Source of the DNA: a candidate division KSB1 bacterium
GTDB lineage: Bacteria; Electryoneota; RPQS01
Direction of reading: 5' to 3'
Length of the DNA stretch: 64,000 nt
NCBI GenBank assembly: GCA_016214895.1
Contig: JACRMR010000003.1
Location: 434,001-498,000, forward strand
Under the pieces are notes generated by a model. It was not told the DNA's origin, made no database searches, and saw only the letters and a program-made list of their open reading frames with translations. The translations under genes and the position numbers were made by a program. Shown piece after piece: positions 45,079 to 57,286 of the stretch (positions are counted from its first letter, which is position 1; each line of letters starts with the position of its first letter).

Positions 45079-47013
45079 CTATTTCAATAGCATGAGCTTC
45101 GTCGCCTGCGAATTGGCGCCAGCATCGAGCCGCGCGATATAGATCCCCGAGGCCAGATCGCTCCCATCAAACGTCACGCGGCGCATTCCTGCCTGCACAA
45201 CTCCATCCTCGAGTACCGCAACTTCCCTCCCCAACAGATCAAACACGCGCAGCGAAACGTACCCGGTCATCTGCAGATTGTAGGCAATCGTGGTTGACGC
45301 ATTAAACGGGTTTGGATAGTTCTGGACTACGGAAATTTCACGCGGTGCTGCACGCGCGTCCGGCGGCTCCGGCGCCGCGAGATGATGCTCCACGTATTCG
45401 AAGATCTCGTTGTAGATGTACCGCGGGCCCCAGTAATCTTCACCGTTGGTCAACACGATAACGCCCGTATTTTCTGCGGGGCAATACCACATATCCGTCG
45501 CGGCCCCATGCTCCAATCCGTGATGTCCCCATACGACTCGCCCCCACCAAGTCCGTGAAATCCAGAACAGACCCCAGACGTAGCCGCCCCACACCGGACT
45601 TGGAAGCTGAGCGCTTGACATCATCTCAACCGTCGTGCTGTCCAGGATTCGAGCTCCGTCAATCTGACCATGCTGCATGAAGGCGATCAGGTGGCGGGCG
45701 AGTTGATTCACGCTCGTACGCAACTGACCGGCGGGAAAGTCAGGATAGCCCGGATGCTGATAGGAAACGTAGCGGCTTCCATTCCACGCATAGGGCACGG
45801 CGGCCTGACTCATGTCCAGATTCGCTTGGAAGAACGAGGAGTTATTCATTCCCAGCGGATGCAAAATGTGCTCCTGGCAGTACTCCTCGAATGCCAGCGA
45901 ATCAGGATTCATTCGCTCCACCAGATAAGCTGCCAGCGTGGCCCCAACGTTGCAGTAGTTCCAAACGGTACCGGGCACTGCGTTGCTGAAGTTCGCTCCC
46001 GCGTGATAGTAAGTGCCCCCGGGCGTCAGATAATTCATCAGGAATTCTCCCAGTGGAATCGGTGAATCGCCGCCCCAAGTATAAAGCTGATCCAGCTCGT
46101 CCCCGTTGTCCGCAATGCCTGACGTGTGCGTCATCAGCATTCGAACCGTAATCGCGGAGTCGGGGTAGAAGGGATGGTGCACTTCCCAGGGCAGATACAG
46201 GTTGATGTCATCATCCAACCCGAACAGACTATCCTCCCAAAGTTGCATCAGCGCGGTCGCGACAACGGTTTTGGAGATCGACGCCAAATGGTAAAGCGTG
46301 GAATCCGTCGGCGCGATGTCCTGCGCGATATTCGCGTTTCCGTAGTTGCCCGTCCAAACGATCTCCCCGTCACGAACGGCACACGCCGACAATCCCGGAA
46401 TATGACGCGCCTGCATGGTCGAATCGATGAAGGAATCCAACTCGGCGGCTGGCTGGTACTCAGTAATGCGCAACTGATAGGCTCCGGCGCTGTTGCCGTA
46501 CCCGTCCACCACGATCAATAGCTCTTGTCCCGCCGACAGCGCAAAACAATACAACTCGGACTGAACTCCGCACACATCATCACTTCCGCAGATGAAATCT
46601 TCCGGATACGACGGTTCTGCGGGGCAAGTGAAATTGAATAGCAGCAAGCCAGTGTCGTATGAACTTCCGCAGAGGGAAATGGTGTAGCGGGCATCCGCCG
46701 GCACGGTCCACTTGTAAGTAATACCTCGTCCTGAACACGCGCCCGAATCCCAGCCGCCCCGCCAGCACGGAGGCCATGCCGGATATGGGCCGTAGTCATT
46801 CGTGGCTCCGACAGTGGTGCCGTTCACGTTGATGGGCAGTGACTGGCCCGAGAGGTCAATGTAGTCAGTGCAGTCGCCCGTGAGAAAGGGATCTCCGGGA
46901 GGTGAACGGAAGACCTCCGAACCCTTACAGAATACTCGATTGCTGAAATCCGCAGCTTGCCCACACACTTGCGGGAGCAGGCAGCCGAGGATTACCACTA
47001 ACAGGATCGCCAC
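45079..47013 (-). CDS. Secreted PPC-domain/serine beta-lactamase-like hydrolase with sorting tail
   Basis: This exported serine hydrolase belongs to the class C beta-lactamase/DD-peptidase superfamily. The GTG at 47013 is chosen because AAAGGAGG lies six bases upstream and it puts the signal peptide (ILLVVILGCLLP) at the very start; a TTG at 47118 is in frame but lacks these marks. Residues about 60-185 form a PPC-like β domain rich in Cys. The hydrolase domain follows, with S245-x-x-K248 (ASISK), Y353-x-N355 (WNYCN) and a late HHG motif (WGHHGLEHG). The last ~80 residues are a type IX-style sorting domain beginning QNYPNPFN. Substrate is unknown: esterase, peptidase or D-amino-acid amidase activity would all fit. 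It is 644 residues long. Confidence 0.88.
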   Translation of the reverse strand: MAILLVVILGCLLPQVCGQAADFSNRVFCKGSEVFRSPPGDPFLTGDCTDYIDLSGQSLPINVNGTTVGATNDYGPYPAWPPCWRGGWDSGACSGRGITYKWTVPADARYTISLCGSSYDTGLLLFNFTCPAEPSYPEDFICGSDDVCGVQSELYCFALSAGQELLIVVDGYGNSAGAYQLRITEYQPAAELDSFIDSTMQARHIPGLSACAVRDGEIVWTGNYGNANIAQDIAPTDSTLYHLASISKTVVATALMQLWEDSLFGLDDDINLYLPWEVHHPFYPDSAITVRMLMTHTSGIADNGDELDQLYTWGGDSPIPLGEFLMNYLTPGGTYYHAGANFSNAVPGTVWNYCNVGATLAAYLVERMNPDSLAFEEYCQEHILHPLGMNNSSFFQANLDMSQAAVPYAWNGSRYVSYQHPGYPDFPAGQLRTSVNQLARHLIAFMQHGQIDGARILDSTTVEMMSSAQLPSPVWGGYVWGLFWISRTWWGRVVWGHHGLEHGAATDMWYCPAENTGVIVLTNGEDYWGPRYIYNEIFEYVEHHLAAPEPPDARAAPREISVVQNYPNPFNASTTIAYNLQMTGYVSLRVFDLLGREVAVLEDGVVQAGMRRVTFDGSDLASGIYIARLDAGANSQATKLMLLK

Positions 47014-47107
47014 GTTCGGCCTCCTTTCAACGCTAATTCTGCTGATGTCCACGAACGATCTCCCACGATGTGTCGTCTTGCGAACGGCTTCCGCGAGCCG
47101 AGCGGCA

Positions 47108-49225
47108 CTAACGCGCAACTGCTTTCACTTGATAGACGCCGTGCCGGTTCATCGCCGGCGTGTCAACGAAGTATGTTGTGTCATGAGGAGCAGGAACTCC
47201 GACTGAATCCATCCGAGTCCCGTCACCCTTCATCACCACATAGTGGTCAACATCGATTTCCGCGCCCAGGGTGTCGAACCGGACCGGCGCCCAGCTCAGC
47301 CACAACAGCTCGAAATCAGGATCATACCGCACGACCAGACTCTCCGGGGCTGCGGGTACGCTGGGTGGATGGGGCGCAAAGTATGAGATGTCATAGATCC
47401 CGAAAAAGTGGTTGTCTGCTACATATGCAAGATCACCAACCACGGAAGCGCTCCAGGCCAAACCCGGCGTGTCGTAGTACCCCACCGGCACGAGCGAAGT
47501 CGGGCTTGTGATGTCAATCACGCGCAGACCGCTCGCGTAATCGGCGACGTAGGCGTAATTCTCCACGACGACGACCCCCGAAGCCACGCCCGGGGTATCA
47601 TAGTATCCCGCCAACGCGGGTGTCGCCGGATTGCCTACGTCAATGACCAGCAGTCCGGAATATCCGGCGGCAACATACGCATAATCTCCGACCACGGCCA
47701 CCGCGGAATACACATCCGAAACATGATCATAGATTCCGATTTGCCACGGCGCCGTAGGTTCGGAAATATCAATCACCCGTAGCCCCCCGCCCCCGTCCGC
47801 CAGATAGGCCAGATTCCCCACCACGGCCACGCCCATTGCGCCCGTAGTTGAGAGCCCCGCTACGTCGAGCGGGGCGGCAGGATCCGTAATATCAAGAACC
47901 CAGAATACTCCGCCTGCGTCTGCCACGTAGGCATAAATACCCGCGACCGCCACGCCCCGGATAGCTGCGTATTCCGCCATCCCAATCGCCCCGACCTCCG
48001 CGGGCCAGAGCGGATCTGAGACGTCGATCACGCGGAGGCCGCCTTCGTAATCCGCGACGTATGCATAGTTACCGGCCACCGCGACCCCGCGCGCATGACC
48101 CGGTGTATCGCAGAAACCCACCTCCATCGGAGCCGCGGGTGTCGAGACATCGATGACGCGCAACCCGGCGGCGTCCGCCGCGACATAGGCATAATTCCCG
48201 ACGACAGCCACGGCCATCGCCGATCCCTGTGAATCGAGAAATCCCAACTCGATGGGAGCGCTGCCGACGGCCACATCTACTACGCGCAGGCCAGCATTGA
48301 AATCGGCGACATAGACGACATCGCCAACCACCGCCACGCCATAGGCGTTTCCGGGCGTGTCATAGAACCCAACCGCAATAAGCGTCGCTGGGTTCGAAAC
48401 ATCGATGACGCGCAATCCGGTGATACCGTCCGCCAAGTACGCATTGCTCCCTGCGATGGCCACACCCCGCGCCTGTCCCGGCGAGTTGTAAAACCCCATG
48501 GGCACGGGCACTGCCGGATCTGTCACGTCGATGACGCGCATCCCGATGCCATCCGTGACGTAGGCAAACTGGCCGGCCACCGCCACCGACAGAACCATGT
48601 TCGGGGTGTTCAAGGCAACGATCGAGACTGGCGCCGCGGGATTTGAGATGTCCAGAATGCGAAGCACTCCGTATTCCTCATCATAGTGGTAGTCCGTCAA
48701 ATAGGCATAGCTCCCCGACACGGTCACCGCCCGCGCTTCTCCATCCGTGGCATAGAACCCGATCTCGGCCGGAATGGATGGCGTCGAGATGTCCACTACT
48801 CTGAGGCCGTTCGTATCATCCGCGACGTAGGCGAGATTACCGGATACGGCTACGTCATGAACGAAACCCGGCGTGTCGTAGGCGCCGACCGCTTCCGGGG
48901 ATGCCGAATTGGAGATATTCACCACGCGTAAGCCACTGAGTCCGTTCGCGACATAGGCGAACTCGCCGGCAACGTCCACACGGAGTGCTGGTTCGGGGGT
49001 GTTGACAAACCCGACGTCTATCGGTCGCGACGAGTTCGAGACATTGACGATGTGTAGTCCGGTGATTCCGGTCGCGCAATACGCGTAGTCGCCGACCACC
49101 TCTACATCGTACGCGTATTCCCAGAAACTGAACAAGCCCACCCGCCGCACGTTCAGACTGTCCTGCGCGATCGCTGCCTGGCCGATCAGTATTCCGGCGA
49201 CCATAGAAATCGTGAATCGCTTCAT
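47108..49225 (-). CDS. Secreted LVIVD-repeat β-propeller protein
   Basis: This exported protein of 705 residues is built almost wholly from about 14 LVIVD-type repeats of some 42 residues, with the pattern VAVVGNYAYVAD--GLRVIDVS-P--P--VG-YDTPG. Such repeats fold into β-propellers. The signal peptide covers residues 1-20 (ending AAIAQ). The last ~90 residues form a fibronectin-III-like domain. No sorting tail is present, unlike the two neighbouring secreted proteins. ATG at 49225 has GGAG six bases upstream and is chosen over the ATG four codons earlier. It lies 24 bases after the preceding gene, so the two are likely co-transcribed. Function is unknown. Confidence 0.85.
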   Translation of the reverse strand: MKRFTISMVAGILIGQAAIAQDSLNVRRVGLFSFWEYAYDVEVVGDYAYCATGITGLHIVNVSNSSRPIDVGFVNTPEPALRVDVAGEFAYVANGLSGLRVVNISNSASPEAVGAYDTPGFVHDVAVSGNLAYVADDTNGLRVVDISTPSIPAEIGFYATDGEARAVTVSGSYAYLTDYHYDEEYGVLRILDISNPAAPVSIVALNTPNMVLSVAVAGQFAYVTDGIGMRVIDVTDPAVPVPMGFYNSPGQARGVAIAGSNAYLADGITGLRVIDVSNPATLIAVGFYDTPGNAYGVAVVGDVVYVADFNAGLRVVDVAVGSAPIELGFLDSQGSAMAVAVVGNYAYVAADAAGLRVIDVSTPAAPMEVGFCDTPGHARGVAVAGNYAYVADYEGGLRVIDVSDPLWPAEVGAIGMAEYAAIRGVAVAGIYAYVADAGGVFWVLDITDPAAPLDVAGLSTTGAMGVAVVGNLAYLADGGGGLRVIDISEPTAPWQIGIYDHVSDVYSAVAVVGDYAYVAAGYSGLLVIDVGNPATPALAGYYDTPGVASGVVVVENYAYVADYASGLRVIDITSPTSLVPVGYYDTPGLAWSASVVGDLAYVADNHFFGIYDISYFAPHPPSVPAAPESLVVRYDPDFELLWLSWAPVRFDTLGAEIDVDHYVVMKGDGTRMDSVGVPAPHDTTYFVDTPAMNRHGVYQVKAVAR

Positions 49226-49249
49226 CTCATGCTCCACGGATTGTGTCTA

Positions 49250-51784
49250 TCACTTTAGCAGCATCAGCTTCCGCGTCTGCGAGAACTCCCCCGCCTCCAG
49301 CCGCGCGAAGTAGATCCCTGAAGCCAAACCGCTGCCGTCGAACACTGTTCGATGCCCGCCGGCTTCGACAATGCCATCCTTGAGCACGGCGACCTCTCTG
49401 CCCAGCAAATCAAACACGCGAAGCGAGATTCGTCCAGCCTTCGGCAGATCGTAGGCAATGTTCGTGGTTGAGTTGAAGGGGTTCGGGTAGTTCTGGCGAA
49501 GCATCAATTCAGTCGGTAGCGGTTCGTGCTCTTCGTGAACAGCTTCGACTTGCTCATCCGCCAGCCTGATGAGATAGACATCGCTGCCACCGGCCCCGAA
49601 GGAGCTTGTTTCACCGGCAATGACATGTCCGCCGTCCGAGCATCGTGCGAGACTCCAACCTCGATCGGCTGCGGATCCTCCCCAGCCCGTGCTCCACACT
49701 GAATTGCCAAGAGAGTCAGTTCTCACCAGATAGACATCCCAGTCACCCGCACCGAATGACCGCGTGAAACCCAAACTGAGAAATCCCCGGTCCGCCGTCT
49801 GGACAACCGACTGGCATTCATCCCAATCGGAGCCTCCATCCGCCCGGTTCCACTCCGCGTATCCGTGGACATCGGTCCTGACAAGATAGGCGTCATAATA
49901 CCCACTGAATGAACAGGACCATCCCCCGAAGATGAATCCTCCGTCTGAAGTCTGCTGGACGGAACGACCCCCGTCGCCCGCCTCACCTCCGTATGTTTGC
50001 GACCAGACAACAAAGCCGTCGGCGTCAGTCCTGACCAGATAGTAATCCCAGTTTCCGGCGCCGTATGATCGCGTCGTCCCTGCAATCACATATCCGCCGT
50101 CTGACAACTGTTGGATTCCCCAGCCCTCGTCGTTACCTTCGCCTCCAATGGTTCTTGTCCAGAGGGTATCGCCCCTTTCATCTGCTTTCACCAGGTAGAT
50201 GTCACGCTGACCCGCCCCGAAGGAACTCGTGATCCCCGCCACGATATAATCTCCGTCGGCGACCTGTTGAACCGAAAATGCCCACTCATCGTTCGCTCCG
50301 CCGAACGTACGTGTCCAGATCGTGTCCCCCTGGCTATCCGTCTTCACGAGGTAGAAGTCCCTGCTGCCCGCGCCAAAGGAAGTCGTAGTTCCGGCCACGA
50401 TGTAGCCGCCGTCCGTGGTCGGTTGCACGGACCGGGCCTCATCCCAGCCGCTTCCTCCATATGCGCGCGCCCACAGCATGTCTCCGAGCCCGTTCGTTTT
50501 CACCAGATAGAAATCACCCGAGCCGGCACCGAGAGACTCGGTTAGTCCTGCCACGATGTAGCCTCCGTCGGCGGTCTCCTGAATAGAATAGCCGTAATCA
50601 TTACCGGCGCCCCCAAGCGTACGCGTCCACACCGTGTCGGGTGCGGTTCCTCCTGACCGTCCGCCGTTGGACGTATGCAAGATTAGACTCCAGGTCGAAT
50701 CAAGCACGCCATTCGAATCGTAACGCCCGGCGGATCCCACAATCCAGCCATGGTTCGCGTCCGCAAAGTCAATGTCTTGAACGCGAGTCAATGGAGCACC
50801 GGTTTCCTGTGTCCACCAAGACACGCCCCCATCCGTGGTGTGTTGGATGACATAGAATGGCGGAGCCCAAGCGCTCAATGCTCCGTTACCCGCGGCCCAG
50901 CCCCAATTCGCGTCAATGAAATCAAAAACGGTCTGAGATTGCCTCACTCCGGGAATTCCATGAGTGCTCCACGTAGCGCCACCATCTGTCGTGCGCCAGA
51001 AGCCGCCCATGTCGTAGCCCTCAGGCATGCATCCCCCAACAATCCAACCGTGGTTCGCATCAATGAACTCTACTCTTCGGAAGGGATATGAGCAATAAGC
51101 CACTTGCGGAGTCCACGTGGCTCCCCCATCCGTCGTGCAATAGACGACTTCTCCATCATCGAGCGATCCGGTGTCGCAGAATCCGCCCACGGTCCAGCCA
51201 TGGTTCACATCCAGGAAATGCACGCCATGCATCAAGTGACTCACGCTCGCCTGTGTCACCCATGTGAGACCCCCGTCGGTAGTGTGCAATATGTCCGAAG
51301 GCGGCGTCCAACAATCCACGCTGCCCACAGCCCAACCGTGGTTCAAGTCAACAAAGTCCACGCTGCTCAAACAGCGACTTGAATCGCTCACCTGCGTGGT
51401 CCAAATCGCGCCGCCATTGGTGGTCCTCATAATAACGGAACGCCGAAAGACGGAAATAGAATCTGACCCTATCACGCTGCCCACCGCCCAACCGTGATCA
51501 ACATCTACGAATTCCACTTCAGTCAGGAAGTACCCTGTGTCACTGCTCTGGATCGTCCACGTTTCGCCGCCATTGGTCGTATGCAGAATGATGCTTCGAC
51601 TGGAATCAGGGTACCAGTAGTCAACAGACCACGCTTGACCTCCGACGGCCCAGCCATTGCTGGTGTCCACAAAAGCGACCGCGTTGAGCGGCAGCTCTGT
51701 CGGCGGAATCTGCCGCTCCCAGCCTTGCGCGAACGCCTCTTGGTTGATCAGCACCGCAATGACGATTGCAACGAAGCTCTTCAT
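49250..51784 (-). CDS. Secreted BNR/YCF48-like and delta-type repeat protein with sorting tail
   Basis: This 844-residue exported protein has a signal peptide at 1-19 (ending EAFAQ). Residues about 25-385 contain repeats of the kind VEFVDVDHGWAVG...HTTNGG-TW, like the BNR/YCF48 β-propeller proteins. Residues about 385-745 contain seven or so repeats of the form TRTFGGANDE--FSVQQ-ADGGYI-AG-T-SFGAG. The end is a type IX-style sorting domain (NYPNPFNSTTN onward) closely matching that of the hydrolase at 45079. AAGGAGG lies six bases before the ATG. Catalytic motifs were not seen. It is first in a group of three secreted-protein genes on the minus strand. Confidence 0.85.
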   Translation of the reverse strand: MKSFVAIVIAVLINQEAFAQGWERQIPPTELPLNAVAFVDTSNGWAVGGQAWSVDYWYPDSSRSIILHTTNGGETWTIQSSDTGYFLTEVEFVDVDHGWAVGSVIGSDSISVFRRSVIMRTTNGGAIWTTQVSDSSRCLSSVDFVDLNHGWAVGSVDCWTPPSDILHTTDGGLTWVTQASVSHLMHGVHFLDVNHGWTVGGFCDTGSLDDGEVVYCTTDGGATWTPQVAYCSYPFRRVEFIDANHGWIVGGCMPEGYDMGGFWRTTDGGATWSTHGIPGVRQSQTVFDFIDANWGWAAGNGALSAWAPPFYVIQHTTDGGVSWWTQETGAPLTRVQDIDFADANHGWIVGSAGRYDSNGVLDSTWSLILHTSNGGRSGGTAPDTVWTRTLGGAGNDYGYSIQETADGGYIVAGLTESLGAGSGDFYLVKTNGLGDMLWARAYGGSGWDEARSVQPTTDGGYIVAGTTTSFGAGSRDFYLVKTDSQGDTIWTRTFGGANDEWAFSVQQVADGDYIVAGITSSFGAGQRDIYLVKADERGDTLWTRTIGGEGNDEGWGIQQLSDGGYVIAGTTRSYGAGNWDYYLVRTDADGFVVWSQTYGGEAGDGGRSVQQTSDGGFIFGGWSCSFSGYYDAYLVRTDVHGYAEWNRADGGSDWDECQSVVQTADRGFLSLGFTRSFGAGDWDVYLVRTDSLGNSVWSTGWGGSAADRGWSLARCSDGGHVIAGETSSFGAGGSDVYLIRLADEQVEAVHEEHEPLPTELMLRQNYPNPFNSTTNIAYDLPKAGRISLRVFDLLGREVAVLKDGIVEAGGHRTVFDGSGLASGIYFARLEAGEFSQTRKLMLLK

Positions 51785-51966
51785 GCGTCGCCTCCTTGAT
51801 TCACCTTATGTTGCCCGCAGAGGAAATTGGCAGGACTGCCTGGACTCGCCTTCGGGGGGCTTCTACTCAGTAGATTGGAGGATCGCACCGCGTCTTTCCG
51901 CGAGTCCAAACCACGGACGAATGCGGACTTAGAGTCACGGTCAATCGGCAACTCCACGCACAAGAA

Positions 51967-52004
51967 AGGCAGACTCTTCCGCCGTCGGTGCGGAGAATCT
52001 GCCT
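51967..52004 (-). terminator. Terminator of the caspase/sigma-factor operon
   Basis: A long imperfect hairpin (outer stem AGGCAGA at 51967-51973 with TCTGCCT at 51998-52004, inner pairs to an AC-rich loop) is followed on the minus strand by TTTCTTG. It lies about 50 bases past the stop of the zinc-finger/TPR gene and before the start of the secreted-protein genes. Confidence 0.75.
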
Positions 52005-52056: not shown

Positions 52057-52905
52057 CTATCGCGTCCCTTTCAGTTTCCAAAGTTTCGTGGCGAGCAGAT
52101 CGGCTCTTGGAGACCAGCGAGATTCTCGATCCACTTGCTCAAGTACCTCCAGTGCGGAGTCCGCCTGATTGTTGAGGAGAAACGCCTGCGCGAGGTACCA
52201 CTGACCGGCGTTACGGACTCCGGGACTCGTGCTTGAAGTCGCTTGCCTCAGGGCTTTGAGGGCCGGACCCGCGTCTTCTTGGAGATAGTAGGAGACGCCC
52301 AGGTAGAGCCAGGCTGAATCGTTCTCGGAATCATGAGTGACCGCTTGGGAGAGTAACGTCGCTGCCCTTTCATAATCACCGGTGCAGTAAGCATCCATGC
52401 CTTCACTGAAGAAATCGCCCGGCTTCGGAGCCTCCATTTCTCGAACACCGTGTCTCTCATAGAGCAAGGGCTCGAACTCCAGCAAACCCAGGTATGCTTT
52501 GCGCGGATAACTCCACATGAGTACCAGGATAGCCACAATCGCTGCCGCGCCAATGGCGGGTGCCAGCACCCAGGACCTGCGCCACTGCGAAAGCCACTGG
52601 ACCTGTCGAGACCACCACGCGGAATAGGGAGACTTTCGATTCGAGTCGCTGACCGCGATAGCGCGTATCTCACTGCAGATCGCCTCATAGGTAACGCCTT
52701 CGTCCTGTAGCCTTGCGAGTAACTCGACGCGACGCTGACGGAGCGCACCCATGGCCGGCAGCATCGTGAAGACCTCATGTCGGCACACCTCGCATTCCAT
52801 CAGATGAACCTCGAAGCGCTCGCGCTCGTCCGGCTTCAGGTCACCCAATTCATAGCGCCAGATGTGGCAGCCGATCGCCGTGTCCGTACAGGAAGCAGCG
52901 TTCAC
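52057..52905 (-). CDS. Zinc-finger anti-sigma-like membrane protein with TPR domain
   Basis: This is the probable partner of the ECF sigma factor encoded just upstream. The GTG at 52905 overlaps the sigma stop as GTGA and gives 282 residues; another GTG at 52944 is in frame. An N-terminal zf-HC2-type site is visible (CHIW..., then HLMECEVCRHE). One membrane helix lies at about 135-155 (LAPAIGAAAIVAILVLMW), and the outer part (about 180-275) has TPR-like helical repeats (GDYERAATLLSQAV and the following AWLYLGVSYYLQ). In known pairs the zinc finger holds the sigma factor until a signal arrives; the TPR part outside could read that signal. This role is inferred from family and position. Confidence 0.82.
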   Translation of the reverse strand: MNAASCTDTAIGCHIWRYELGDLKPDERERFEVHLMECEVCRHEVFTMLPAMGALRQRRVELLARLQDEGVTYEAICSEIRAIAVSDSNRKSPYSAWWSRQVQWLSQWRRSWVLAPAIGAAAIVAILVLMWSYPRKAYLGLLEFEPLLYERHGVREMEAPKPGDFFSEGMDAYCTGDYERAATLLSQAVTHDSENDSAWLYLGVSYYLQEDAGPALKALRQATSSTSPGVRNAGQWYLAQAFLLNNQADSALEVLEQVDRESRWSPRADLLATKLWKLKGTR

Positions 52906-53540
52906 GGATTCAATCCAATCGCTTCTCGAAGCCGTTTGCGACACATGAATATCCGCTTGTCAAATGCTCTCCGTGTTAAGTAAGGCTCCGCAGTGTGGGC
53001 AACGTCCCACACATCAAGCACTGCCTTGCCTTCCAGCATAGCGACGATGAACATCCTGCAGAAACGCGGAAGCCGGACCAATTCGGCGTGAATGCGCTGC
53101 AGCAGGGCGGTTCCATCGATCCGCGCTCCATAGTTGCTCTCTGGATCAGTTTCGCCGATCGGCACCGCTTCTGACGTCTCGTCCACATCGGAGTCCGCGA
53201 AATCCGCCCGATTGCCCCTGATTGACGCACTGGACTTCATATGCCGCAGTGCGTCACCGATCTTGTTATGCATGACCTGCAAGGCGAAGATGTGCGGGTT
53301 ATCTTCGATGTGGCTATACTTGTCGGCAAACACTAAGAGCGTATTTTGTAGAATATCCTCCTGATCCTGCCGCGACCATCCCCATAATCTGGATTGTAAG
53401 GCCACTCGCAATCTTTCCGCAAGCGCCCGACACAGTTTGTCCAAGGCCGCACGATTTCCCCGTTTGGCCTGGCTCAAAAGCTGATTCATCTGGCGGGCTT
53501 CCTCAGACATCGGTCGTTCTAAAGGGTGATCATGGATCAT
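52902..53540 (-). CDS. ECF-type RNA polymerase sigma factor
   Basis: This 212-residue protein has a sigma region 2 (about 28-100, with WSRQDQEDILQNTLLVFADKY) followed by a short acidic linker and a region 4-like helical part (about 140-210, LVRLPRFCRMFIVAML and a following helix-turn-helix). The region 4 DNA-binding helix is less typical than in housekeeping ECF factors. It starts 14 bases after the stop of the caspase gene and overlaps the zinc-finger gene, so the three form one transcription unit. ATG at 53540 or 30 bases further in may be the start. Its target promoters are unknown. Confidence 0.85.
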   Translation of the reverse strand: MIHDHPLERPMSEEARQMNQLLSQAKRGNRAALDKLCRALAERLRVALQSRLWGWSRQDQEDILQNTLLVFADKYSHIEDNPHIFALQVMHNKIGDALRHMKSSASIRGNRADFADSDVDETSEAVPIGETDPESNYGARIDGTALLQRIHAELVRLPRFCRMFIVAMLEGKAVLDVWDVAHTAEPYLTRRAFDKRIFMCRKRLREAIGLNP

Positions 53541-53554
53541 GCCATTCCAGGTGC

Positions 53555-56500
53555 CTAAGGGAACGCCGATCGCAGGAGGGGGGCAGCCACCACCAAGTTC
53601 TCCAGGCCCGCGGGTGCCCAGAACACCGGATTCTGCTTCTGCCCCGTCAGTTGAATGACGCGACTGCTCACATAGGTGATTAGTTGCAGCGCAGTAACCT
53701 TGTGCTCCACGCCGGACGGATTTCCCTCGCCTTCCAATCCTTCAATCAATGCATACGTGAACACTCCGTGCTGCAAGCTATCGGATTCAATTGAGGGTCG
53801 GCTGCCCTCACTGGAAGTCATAACCAATACACGGTTGTCTTTCAGCCCGCGCGCAAGTCTCACAACGTCAACACCGACGTCTCCTGAATGGCAGGCATCG
53901 AGAAACACAAGCCGTCGGGCCGATACGTTGACCGCCTCCAGCAGGGAGGCGCTTGAAATCGCTTTGGACTTGTTGAAGTCGTGGGGTCCCGCAATCTCGG
54001 CATCGGAAGGCAGGAAGTAGAAATCCCCTGTGCTGTCGTTTTCACCATGTCCTGCCATGAACAATACGGCCAGATCCCGTTCGCCTGCCCGCTGCAAGAA
54101 GCCGATGTTTGAGACAATGGCGGCGTACGTCGGTTTCTCAGGGCTATCGTCCGTGAGGCACACACTCATTACCTTCCGGCACGTCTTGCCGGCCTGAGAC
54201 TCAAACGCCTGAATGACCCCCTGCGCATCATTCTGGCAGTAGCTTAGTCGGCGCACTCGCCTGTCATCATACCGATTCACGCCGACCGCGAGTATCCAGA
54301 TCGTGTCAATGTCCCAGGGTTCAGATCCGGTCTCGGTACTCTGAACCCGCACCTGAAGGTTCACCACGGCTTCCGACCTGCCCAGAACGATGATCGAAAT
54401 CTGATTGTCTCCTTCGTCCAGCTGTACCGGGACCTTGAGGTCGCGTGAAGCGTTTCCTTGGGCAATGTCGATGAAGCGACGCGAAGTCGCGTCGCTCGTG
54501 GCGGCGGTCGTGCGCCTGGTCAAGGGCCGACCATTCACAAACACCCTGACTGACTTGATCGACGAGTGCCGGTCCTCGACTCGAAACACCAGCGTCGCGT
54601 CAGTCGTTCGCAGTGTGTCACCGTTTCTTGGATACTTGATCTCGACAATTGGCGGCTCCAGAGTCGGCAAGTCAGCAATCGTCGTACACGTTTCCTTGCA
54701 GCCCAGAACTTCACGGATGGCCGCTTCGCTATCCCCCAGTCGCAACGCCGCTTCAACCACGGCCGGCTGGTAGAATGTCGAACGGTACGGCTCAATCCCC
54801 GTGACCATGCTGCCGGCGCGCACGTTAAGAGATGCGTCTCCATTCAGTGATGCGGTGTAGTAGCCTTCTGGAGTTACCGCAATCCACTCGCCGTTCAGGA
54901 AGCTGACCAATTGCACGATCTCTTTGCCGGTCACAACACTCCACACCCGTGTGATACCCCCATAACTACTGGTGACAAGCCGGTGGTCATCCGCAGACAG
55001 ACCATTGCATACGATGTACCCGGTTTGGTCGAAGAACTCACGAACCTTCCTTCCCGTTTGAGCATCCCACATCCCGACCGAAGAACAGTCCCATATTCGT
55101 GTCCTAAGATACTCGGTCCCCGTCCACCAGTCGATCGCCGCCAAGTGATACGCCTGACCCGCAAACCAGCGCTCGTCCGAGGACTGCACAAGTCGCACCG
55201 CGGCGTCATCCAACTTCAATGACCGGGTGATCCTGCCGGTCAACACGTCCCAGAATTCAACGGTACCGTCGAATCTCGAAATCACCGCGCGATCACCCGA
55301 TGACGAGAGTAGTGCTTCCGTCGTGCAACCGCCGCCCCAGCCGTCTGGATCAAATCGAACATCCATGGCGGTATCGCGCAGAATCATGTGACGGTTCGTC
55401 GTGAAGTCGAAGTAGTCCACCTCTGGAACACACCGCTTCGCCATGGCTCGTTGGCCGTTGGCAGAGAGTGACACCGTCCTACATAGCTGAGACTTCACGC
55501 AAAGTGGCGGGCAATCGCCGGTAAAGCTCCCGGCTTTCTGGCCGGTAGCGATGTCCCACCGAGTGTAAACGCTGTCAACCGTTTCTGTCAGCGCGAAGTG
55601 ACCGTTGCTATCGACAGCCCAGGCTTTCACGTCGCCCAACACAGGTTGCGATGTGATCCCCAGCGGACCGCGTTCCACGCTCCAGAACTTGATGTAGGCA
55701 GAGCCGGCGTCATCCCCGGCAATTCGCGCCAAGGCATGTCGGCAGTCTCTGGTCCAGTTCCACCCTTCACCCTGCTCGCTCGGAAATACCACTTCAACTC
55801 GTCTGCCCGTTCGTGCGTCCCAAGACATTAGCCGGTCCCACAACGCGGTTCGAATCCGGGTGCCGTCCGGCGAAAAGGCAACCTCGGAAACGGCTCCCGC
55901 GAGCCTGGCGAAGTCGCGCACAAGACTCCCCCGCTCGATGTCCCAGAGGTGGATAGCGCCATCAGACCCTCCCGTCAGAATGTAATATCCATCTGGCGAC
56001 AGAGAAGCAGCGGTGACGGGATAGTCTTGCACGGGATACTGCGTGAGCAGCTGCCCATCCTCGATTCCCCACAACTTCATCGTCCCGTCCAGTCCGCATG
56101 AGAGCACGCGCCGCCCGTCCGGCAGAATCTGGATTGCGGATACACCGTAGTCATGCGCGACGATGTATTGTGTCCTGCCCCCCGATTGTACATCCCATAT
56201 TTCCAGCTTTCCGGCTTCCGCATAATCCGCACGTGGCCCCGGAAGTCCGACACCCGCACGAGACTTCACGAACGCCTTGAGGTTGCCGTTGCCGGAGAAT
56301 ATTTTCGCTCCACTCTCGTCGAATGCGACACACAGGAGAGCTCCTGGCGCCAGGCGAAATTTCTGGACAGCACGGCCTGCATTGACCTCCCACTTGGTCA
56401 GTAACGTCGTATCCTGCGATCCCCCCGTGATCGCGTAACGTCCGTCGCCGGAGAATGCTGAGCAGATGGCCCCCCCGAAGCCGGTAGTCACGCGCTGCAA

Positions 56501-57049
56501 CTCAGGCCCTGAGTTGGTATTCCAAATATACGCAACGGAGTCACTGGTCGTGCAGAGAATCCGGTCACCATTGGCGGACAAAGAGACGGAGTTGACCGGA
56601 GCTGCTGTGTTGAAGCGCCGGCTCTCCGTCAAAGTGCTCGCATCCCAGATCCGCACTGTGCTGTCTGTACCTGCTGTCAGAAACTGCTTGCCGTGAGCGA
56701 CATACGCTACAGCGGTAACCCAGCCCGTCGCATGCGCGCGAAGACTGTACACCTCACGTCCGGTCGCGACTTTCCAGATCTTGACAAGGCCGTCCCGCCC
56801 CCCAGATATCGCGTAGCGTCCATCCGGCGACCACGCGATGGATATCACAGTTGCATGGTGCCCTTGCTGAACGTACACCTGCGGCGCGTCGAACTCGACA
56901 ACGCCAGCGGTACTGCCTTGCTTTTCGTGCCTGGCCAGGAGCAGGGCCAAGACCGCAGCGAGGACAATCGCTAAGACCAGTGCAAATCCGATAACGCGAC
57001 GACGCACGGCATTCTCCGGAGTCTCATCACCTTGAGAGTCTTCTTCCAA
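53555..57049 (-). CDS. WD40-repeat/caspase (peptidase C14) membrane-anchored protein
   Basis: This 1164-residue protein has one N-terminal membrane helix (about 20-40), a long array of WD40 repeats (about 60-760; for example WSPDGRYAISGGRDGLVKIW), a β linker, and a C-terminal caspase-like domain (about 935-1150). The His/Cys dyad is intact: H1001 in FMAGHGEND and C1053 in FLDACHSGD, so proteolytic activity is plausible. Caspase-like proteases of bacteria cut after basic or acidic residues and are tied to stress or programmed death in some species. The start is uncertain: TTG at 57049 has a poor ribosome site, whereas a GTG at 57007 has GGAG six bases upstream and would still begin before the membrane helix. 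It heads an operon with a sigma factor and its likely antagonist. Confidence 0.88.
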   Translation of the reverse strand: MEEDSQGDETPENAVRRRVIGFALVLAIVLAAVLALLLARHEKQGSTAGVVEFDAPQVYVQQGHHATVISIAWSPDGRYAISGGRDGLVKIWKVATGREVYSLRAHATGWVTAVAYVAHGKQFLTAGTDSTVRIWDASTLTESRRFNTAAPVNSVSLSANGDRILCTTSDSVAYIWNTNSGPELQRVTTGFGGAICSAFSGDGRYAITGGSQDTTLLTKWEVNAGRAVQKFRLAPGALLCVAFDESGAKIFSGNGNLKAFVKSRAGVGLPGPRADYAEAGKLEIWDVQSGGRTQYIVAHDYGVSAIQILPDGRRVLSCGLDGTMKLWGIEDGQLLTQYPVQDYPVTAASLSPDGYYILTGGSDGAIHLWDIERGSLVRDFARLAGAVSEVAFSPDGTRIRTALWDRLMSWDARTGRRVEVVFPSEQGEGWNWTRDCRHALARIAGDDAGSAYIKFWSVERGPLGITSQPVLGDVKAWAVDSNGHFALTETVDSVYTRWDIATGQKAGSFTGDCPPLCVKSQLCRTVSLSANGQRAMAKRCVPEVDYFDFTTNRHMILRDTAMDVRFDPDGWGGGCTTEALLSSSGDRAVISRFDGTVEFWDVLTGRITRSLKLDDAAVRLVQSSDERWFAGQAYHLAAIDWWTGTEYLRTRIWDCSSVGMWDAQTGRKVREFFDQTGYIVCNGLSADDHRLVTSSYGGITRVWSVVTGKEIVQLVSFLNGEWIAVTPEGYYTASLNGDASLNVRAGSMVTGIEPYRSTFYQPAVVEAALRLGDSEAAIREVLGCKETCTTIADLPTLEPPIVEIKYPRNGDTLRTTDATLVFRVEDRHSSIKSVRVFVNGRPLTRRTTAATSDATSRRFIDIAQGNASRDLKVPVQLDEGDNQISIIVLGRSEAVVNLQVRVQSTETGSEPWDIDTIWILAVGVNRYDDRRVRRLSYCQNDAQGVIQAFESQAGKTCRKVMSVCLTDDSPEKPTYAAIVSNIGFLQRAGERDLAVLFMAGHGENDSTGDFYFLPSDAEIAGPHDFNKSKAISSASLLEAVNVSARRLVFLDACHSGDVGVDVVRLARGLKDNRVLVMTSSEGSRPSIESDSLQHGVFTYALIEGLEGEGNPSGVEHKVTALQLITYVSSRVIQLTGQKQNPVFWAPAGLENLVVAAPLLRSAFP

Positions 57050-57252: not shown

Positions 57253-57286
57253 AGGCCCCTGTTAACAATGAAGTTAACAAGGGCCT
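57253..57286 (-). terminator. Hairpin with palindromic HpaI-like arms, putative terminator
   Basis: AGGCCC-C-TGTTAAC (57253-57266) pairs with GTTAACA-A-GGGCCT (57273-57286) around a 6-nt loop, with one mismatch. The minus strand continues TTGTGAATTTG, a modest T-rich tail. It lies downstream of the gene remnants on that strand. Confidence 0.5.

Follow-up and report, generated by a model that had tools for sequence, protein, structure and literature searches.

Organization of the operon

Three reverse-strand genes are arranged as an operon in the window, the whole 64,000-nucleotide stretch that was analyzed. A WD40-caspase gene comes first and is followed, after a 14-base gap, by an ECF sigma factor gene, which meets the gene of an anti-sigma factor in a GTGA overlap; a hairpin lies 3′ of the operon (Table 1). 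Re-reading of the sequence bore out the reading frames, strand, gap and overlap described in the initial annotation, and the 3′ terminator that it proposed coincides with this hairpin. Terminator-like patterns overall are no commoner than in shuffled sequence, and a sigma-70 promoter scan gave no signal above shuffles. The GTG start of the anti-sigma gene at 52905 is backed by homologues, and the TTG at 57049 is a tentative call for the start of the caspase. About 205 bases upstream of the latter, an almost perfect inverted repeat whose arms are separated by 6 bases (57254-57285) forms a possible operator or terminator. The host assembly (3.2 Mb) is kin to Candidatus Zixiibacteriota, and its sole C14 gene is that of the operon's WD40-caspase.

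Table 1. Features of the operon and its 3′ flank, with positions in the window
Feature	Position	Strand	Basis
WD40-caspase, orthocaspase-type C14, 1164 aa, N-terminal membrane anchor	53555..57049	-	Pfam C14 E=3.9e-14, WD40
Membrane helix, aa 19-37, after RRR	56939..56995	-	Hydropathy 3.16
WD40 repeat region, limits approximate	54770..56878	-	Pfam WD40
Caspase domain, aa 920-1145, motif DACHSG	53615..54292	-	Pfam above cut-off
Codon of H1001	54047..54049	-	Residue read from translation
Codon of C1053	53891..53893	-	Residue read from translation
ECF sigma factor, 212 aa, sigma2 + sigma4	52902..53540	-	Family models, AlphaFold2 model
Anti-sigma factor, 282 aa	52057..52905	-	zf-HC2 and TPR above cut-off; conserved partner of sigma
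Cytoplasmic zinc anti-sigma domain (C6, H34, C38, C41)	52735..52905	-	Pfam; conservation
Membrane helix, aa 112-132	52510..52572	-	Hydropathy, structure model
Periplasmic linker, aa 133-164	52414..52509	-	Aa 151-160 modeled at confidence 62 and free of secondary structure
Codon of R155, proposed P1 residue	52441..52443	-	Arg in 36/37 homologues; CHAT co-occurrence
Periplasmic TPR domain, including stop codon	52057..52413	-	Pfam TPR, structure model
Hairpin, probable terminator, 3′ of operon	51964..52004	-	-27.6 kcal/mol, z=-4.3

The three proteins

The WD40-caspase combines its C14 domain with many Pfam WD40 matches. The catalytic pair described as intact in the initial annotation is indeed present, residue 1001 being His and residue 1053 Cys within the p20 domain, as in peptidases of family C14. 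The single membrane helix assigned to each end protein also holds, at the N-terminus in the caspase and as the only helix in the anti-sigma factor. Under the positive-inside rule, the N-terminus of the caspase would lie inside, with the propeller and the caspase domain outside. A generic PADLOC caspase model matches the protein weakly, and the EACC1-associated caspase model gives 67.6 bits against a cut-off of 140.

In the DACHSG motif, an Asp stands two residues before the Cys; in metacaspases, this Asp is the residue of basic specificity. An Asp-type caspase cleavage site was considered and is ruled out by this motif together with the C14 literature: it is the wrong expectation because, outside the animal caspases, C14 enzymes are reported to require a P1 residue that is Arg or Lys (PMC5756287). 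Another WD40-caspase with a DACHSG-type motif, in a related genome (L093:2940-8574), adjoins a Lon protease gene.

The sigma factor taken alone is divergent and falls under the Pfam and NCBIfam cut-offs, but eight of nine members of its family match the sigma-70 ECF model TIGR02937. Its AlphaFold2 model (pLDDT 86) matches the SigE-RseA, SigW-RsiW, AlgU and CnrH structures; sigma2 and sigma4 are present in an ECF fold, without sigma1 or sigma3. Seven of the nine members match the CASP-sigma model NF041236. Special kinship with CASP-sigma is nevertheless not supported, since other ECFs score higher on this model, and its cut-off is reached by no sigma in 39 genomes. Searching plasmids with the sigma factor gave weak generic sigma matches only, and a scan of genome contigs gave one relative.

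The anti-sigma factor matches zf-HC2 at 27.4 bits (cut-off 22.2) and TPR above cut-off; DUF1822 is not among its Pfam matches. It has the HxxxCxxC motif and upstream Cys near the N-terminus of a ZAS domain. Because this zinc domain precedes the membrane helix and the TPR region comes after it, the TPR half is placed outside the membrane. The protein is a predicted inhibitor of the adjacent sigma factor, a role suggested by their conserved adjacency. Two relatives (L019:1877-3988 and L018:768-1904) carry a Kre9/KNH-like Ig domain, and the former also has a C-terminal type IX secretion sorting domain; such extra domains are odd for a protein that is required in the inner membrane.

A CHAT protease in the place of the caspase

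A profile of the sigma factor (A1) retrieved 19 loci in the Zixibacteria phylum, the window among them and one weak match excluded. The anti-sigma gene follows the sigma gene in 18 of them, the exception (L056) stopping at a contig edge. A CHAT protein is encoded beside the pair at 15 of the 19 loci, mostly upstream and mostly with TPRs, and it is this upstream place that the WD40-caspase holds in the window. No protease was seen near the pair at L018, L019 and L020, the first two of which are on short contigs. Further genomes yielded CHAT trios from two additional phyla (L114, L115) and, from a third, a pair that lacks CHAT (L116); in the phylum of G209, CHAT was present at 15 of 18 further loci. 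Across Zixibacteria and three other phyla, CHAT occurs at 32 of 40 loci and C14 at one. In a sigma tree with open forks, the window sigma is placed among the CHAT-neighbored sigmas.

CHAT is rare in the Zixibacteria phylum (32 matches in 39 genomes), and no CHAT gene is present in the window genome. This genome has a single caspase, and it sits in the CHAT slot. Conserved adjacency of the literal trio, proposed in the initial annotation as a test, failed to appear: the phylum's 24 other C14 genes all lie away from this sigma family, and no second instance of the exact WD40-caspase/sigma/anti-sigma trio occurs among the genomes searched. On the evidence of gene neighborhoods, the conserved unit is sigma factor, anti-sigma factor and caspase-clan protease. 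The window is its sole caspase example, and the role of the caspase would follow from its equivalence to CHAT. These same counts, a single caspase example and 24 others elsewhere, would speak for a chance neighborhood, with an unrelated WD40-caspase preceding the pair. Such a coincidence is extremely unlikely because the genome's single C14 gene sits here, on the same strand, 14 bases from the pair and in the place of the relatives' caspase-clan protease.

The sigma frames at L016, L022 and L024 are broken by a stop or frameshift, either through sequencing error or through decay, and the adjoining CHAT and anti-sigma genes are intact. At L022:1-9608 (G007:C474), the CHAT, sigma and anti-sigma genes are accompanied by a frame-broken, caspase-containing open reading frame about 4 kb downstream.

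Predicted topology

By a crude hydropathy measure, export-like N-termini are found in 36 of 42 CHAT proteins and 19 of 22 caspases, compared with 37% of background open reading frames. Several CHAT proteins have lipobox-like cysteines, and the window caspase is presumably exported. With both the protease and the anti-sigma ectodomain outside, the protease and the TPR half are predicted to share the periplasm and could meet there.

This placement bears on the initial suggestion of a death response, for which no support emerged. Under that reading, the operon would be a module for cell death or abortive infection: its caspase would kill the cell, and expression of the caspase would be controlled by the sigma factor. 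Caspases and ECF sigmas do co-occur in proposed conflict systems (PMC8195603), and the weak PADLOC caspase match points the same way. However, the protease is predicted to be extracytoplasmic, and no PADLOC model is matched by the sigma or anti-sigma factor, which makes a death module very unlikely.

A conserved arginine in the linker

R155 is the most conserved ectodomain residue in an alignment of 37 anti-sigmas, in which the placement of L116 is ambiguous: it is Arg in 36 and His in L020, above the conservation of the zinc ligands H34/C38/C41 (31/37). It lies about 25 residues past the helix, in the lowest-confidence stretch of the model between helix and TPR. In L150-L152, whose ectodomains have no TPR region, L-R-G is kept at a nearby place; L151, L152, L189, L225 and L228-L230, with non-TPR ectodomains, retain an Arg in a comparable position. 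The initial annotation had proposed looking for a caspase-type cleavage site in the linker near the membrane helix. A near-invariant Arg in the juxtamembrane linker answers to this idea in position, and no Asp-type site is to be expected.

Anti-sigmas from the phylum of G333 served as a separate test set; most sigma matches there are generic ECFs that align over region 2 alone, and these were left out of the family count. Members of a short class (about 220-232 aa) differ in their ectodomain and bear motifs such as LMPTRSS or LLPLRST 18-25 residues past the helix. CHAT is encoded beside six of these short proteins (L189, L224, L225, L228, L229, L230); three others (L184, L222, L223) have no CHAT in view, and L183 is truncated where its contig begins. 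One-helix anti-sigmas of 754-799 aa (e.g. L185-L187, L191, L226, L227), another class of ECF partner with long TPR-like ectodomains, lack both a CHAT neighbor and an aligned motif. A fixed pattern was found in 6/6 anti-sigmas with CHAT and 5/13 without (Fisher P=0.018), a result from a loose three-residue pattern and a small sample in which L185, among the five, looks spurious on inspection. Within the discovery set, the pattern occurs at a fixed maximum distance in 27/30 anti-sigmas with a protease and in all 6 of those that lack one, several of which sit at the edge of a contig; this set speaks for conservation of the Arg motif and offers no contrast by protease. The co-occurrence of Arg and CHAT is support, not proof, for cleavage at this residue, and R155 could alternatively be a docking or folding residue.

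A docking residue would suit a protease that acts as a sensor or scaffold, binding the anti-sigma TPR and freeing the sigma factor without a cut. Repeat domains on both sides (TPR and WD40) are typical of binding, and a docking site can be invariant. This reading is rather improbable, given that the catalytic Cys is present in all 40 CHAT proteins and that the Arg persists without a TPR domain. A different possibility is that the sigma factor controls the protease, which acts on other envelope proteins, while a general site-1 protease opens the anti-sigma factor. ECF sigmas often control their neighbors; the CHAT gene is often divergent from the pair in the G209 phylum, as a regulated target would be; and motif-bearing anti-sigmas with no CHAT seen nearby exist (L150, L184, L222 and L223, two of the four on short contigs). 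This arrangement has a modest chance of being correct and is on balance unlikely, because it leaves unexplained both the retention of the Arg in unrelated ectodomains and its tracking of CHAT.

A proposed site-1 protease for an ECF sigma factor

The architecture, neighborhood, active sites and arginine are best explained, with a probability of roughly 0.57, by a three-gene transmembrane gene switch in which the exported clan-CD protease would act at site 1, cutting the anti-sigma factor at the conserved Arg. The WD40 propeller, or TPRs in relatives, would sense an envelope signal, and the caspase, as a dedicated site-1 protease, would cut the periplasmic linker at or near R155. An RseP-like site-2 protease would then cut the stub in the membrane, and the freed sigma factor would drive its regulon, perhaps including its own operon. 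We infer cutting because CHAT holds the slot in relatives, the partners share a membrane side and the linker Arg is near-invariant. In support, CHAT adjoins the pair although it is rare, and the catalytic Cys is intact in the CHAT proteins, as are His and Cys in the window caspase. The idea that the caspase frees the sigma factor by cutting the anti-sigma factor, raised in the initial annotation, is thus the best-supported one, although not through conservation of the literal trio. CHAT specificity is less clear than that of C14.

In the sigma-E pathway, site-1 cleavage falls to DegS, a PDZ serine protease whose gene lies elsewhere, and the anti-sigma factor RseA is not known to have TPR or a linker Arg motif. 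The putative two-step proteolysis resembles this DegS/RseA/RseP pathway, in which a single-pass anti-sigma is first cut on its periplasmic side, at site 1, and then by RseP. The topology is compatible with such a scheme, the window genome encodes an RseP-like S2P homologue, and the sigma model matches sigma-E. In contrast to DegS/RseA, the window protease adjoins the pair and the anti-sigma factor carries TPR and the linker Arg.

Craspase is RNA-guided, CRISPR-linked and cytoplasmic. In this type III-E system (Cas7-11/Csx29 TPR-CHAT, Csx30 and CASP-sigma), the CHAT protease cuts an ECF sigma inhibitor in a flexible loop, Csx29 cleaving Csx30 between residues 427 and 429 with no single residue essential (PMC10028731). 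With its TPR-CHAT protease acting on an ECF sigma inhibitor, Craspase is the closest working precedent for the window operon, whose proteins differ in being predicted to be exported or membrane-bound and whose sigma factor shows no special kinship to CASP-sigma. The type III CRISPR Lon system encodes a protease, an anti-sigma-like inhibitor and a sigma factor together (CalpL/CalpT/CalpS), and this one-neighborhood layout recurs in the window; however, CalpL is a SAVED-Lon activated by cyclic oligoadenylate, whereas the window protease belongs to clan CD.

Two further likenesses are known from published descriptions. ECF54 sigmas have CHAT, subtilase or carboxypeptidase proteins conserved nearby and are described without an anti-sigma factor (PMC8999054); a CHAT neighbor is shared, and the anti-sigma factor sets the present system apart from that description. 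EACC2-caspase neighborhoods also contain genes for an ECF sigma and for a TPR protein with DUF1822, and their caspase proteins combine a constant N-terminal EACC2-caspase module with a variable C-terminus (PMC8195603). Compared by description, they likewise encode a caspase, an ECF sigma and a TPR protein together, but the window caspase domain is C-terminal and the anti-sigma factor is zf-HC2, not DUF1822. The remark in the initial annotation that it was aware of no described circuit of this composition has to be tempered, given Craspase, CalpL/T/S, ECF54-CHAT and EACC2-caspase/ECF neighborhoods. In open-licence full text, CHAT domain with anti-sigma yielded the Craspase paper only, and orthocaspase with sigma factor yielded no paper, which is weak evidence of novelty.

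It is conceivable, at slightly less than even odds, that exported caspase-clan proteases (CHAT and WD40-caspase) constitute a widespread, CRISPR-independent class of dedicated, locally encoded site-1 proteases that would cut membrane anti-sigmas at an invariant juxtamembrane Arg and release ECF sigmas, with the Craspase circuit as a relative or a parallel. If so, bacterial caspase relatives would gain an extracytoplasmic signaling job, one for which a substrate is named and a cleavage residue predicted, and the Craspase sigma circuit would sit beside a broader CRISPR-free theme. The system offers a direct test of orthocaspase and CHAT protease function.

Downstream of the operon, genes at 45079-51784 code for secreted proteins of propeller type (LVIVD, BNR/DUF5122) and for a protein that resembles beta-lactamases; two of the products have C-terminal type IX sorting domains. 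These genes could be targets of the switch.
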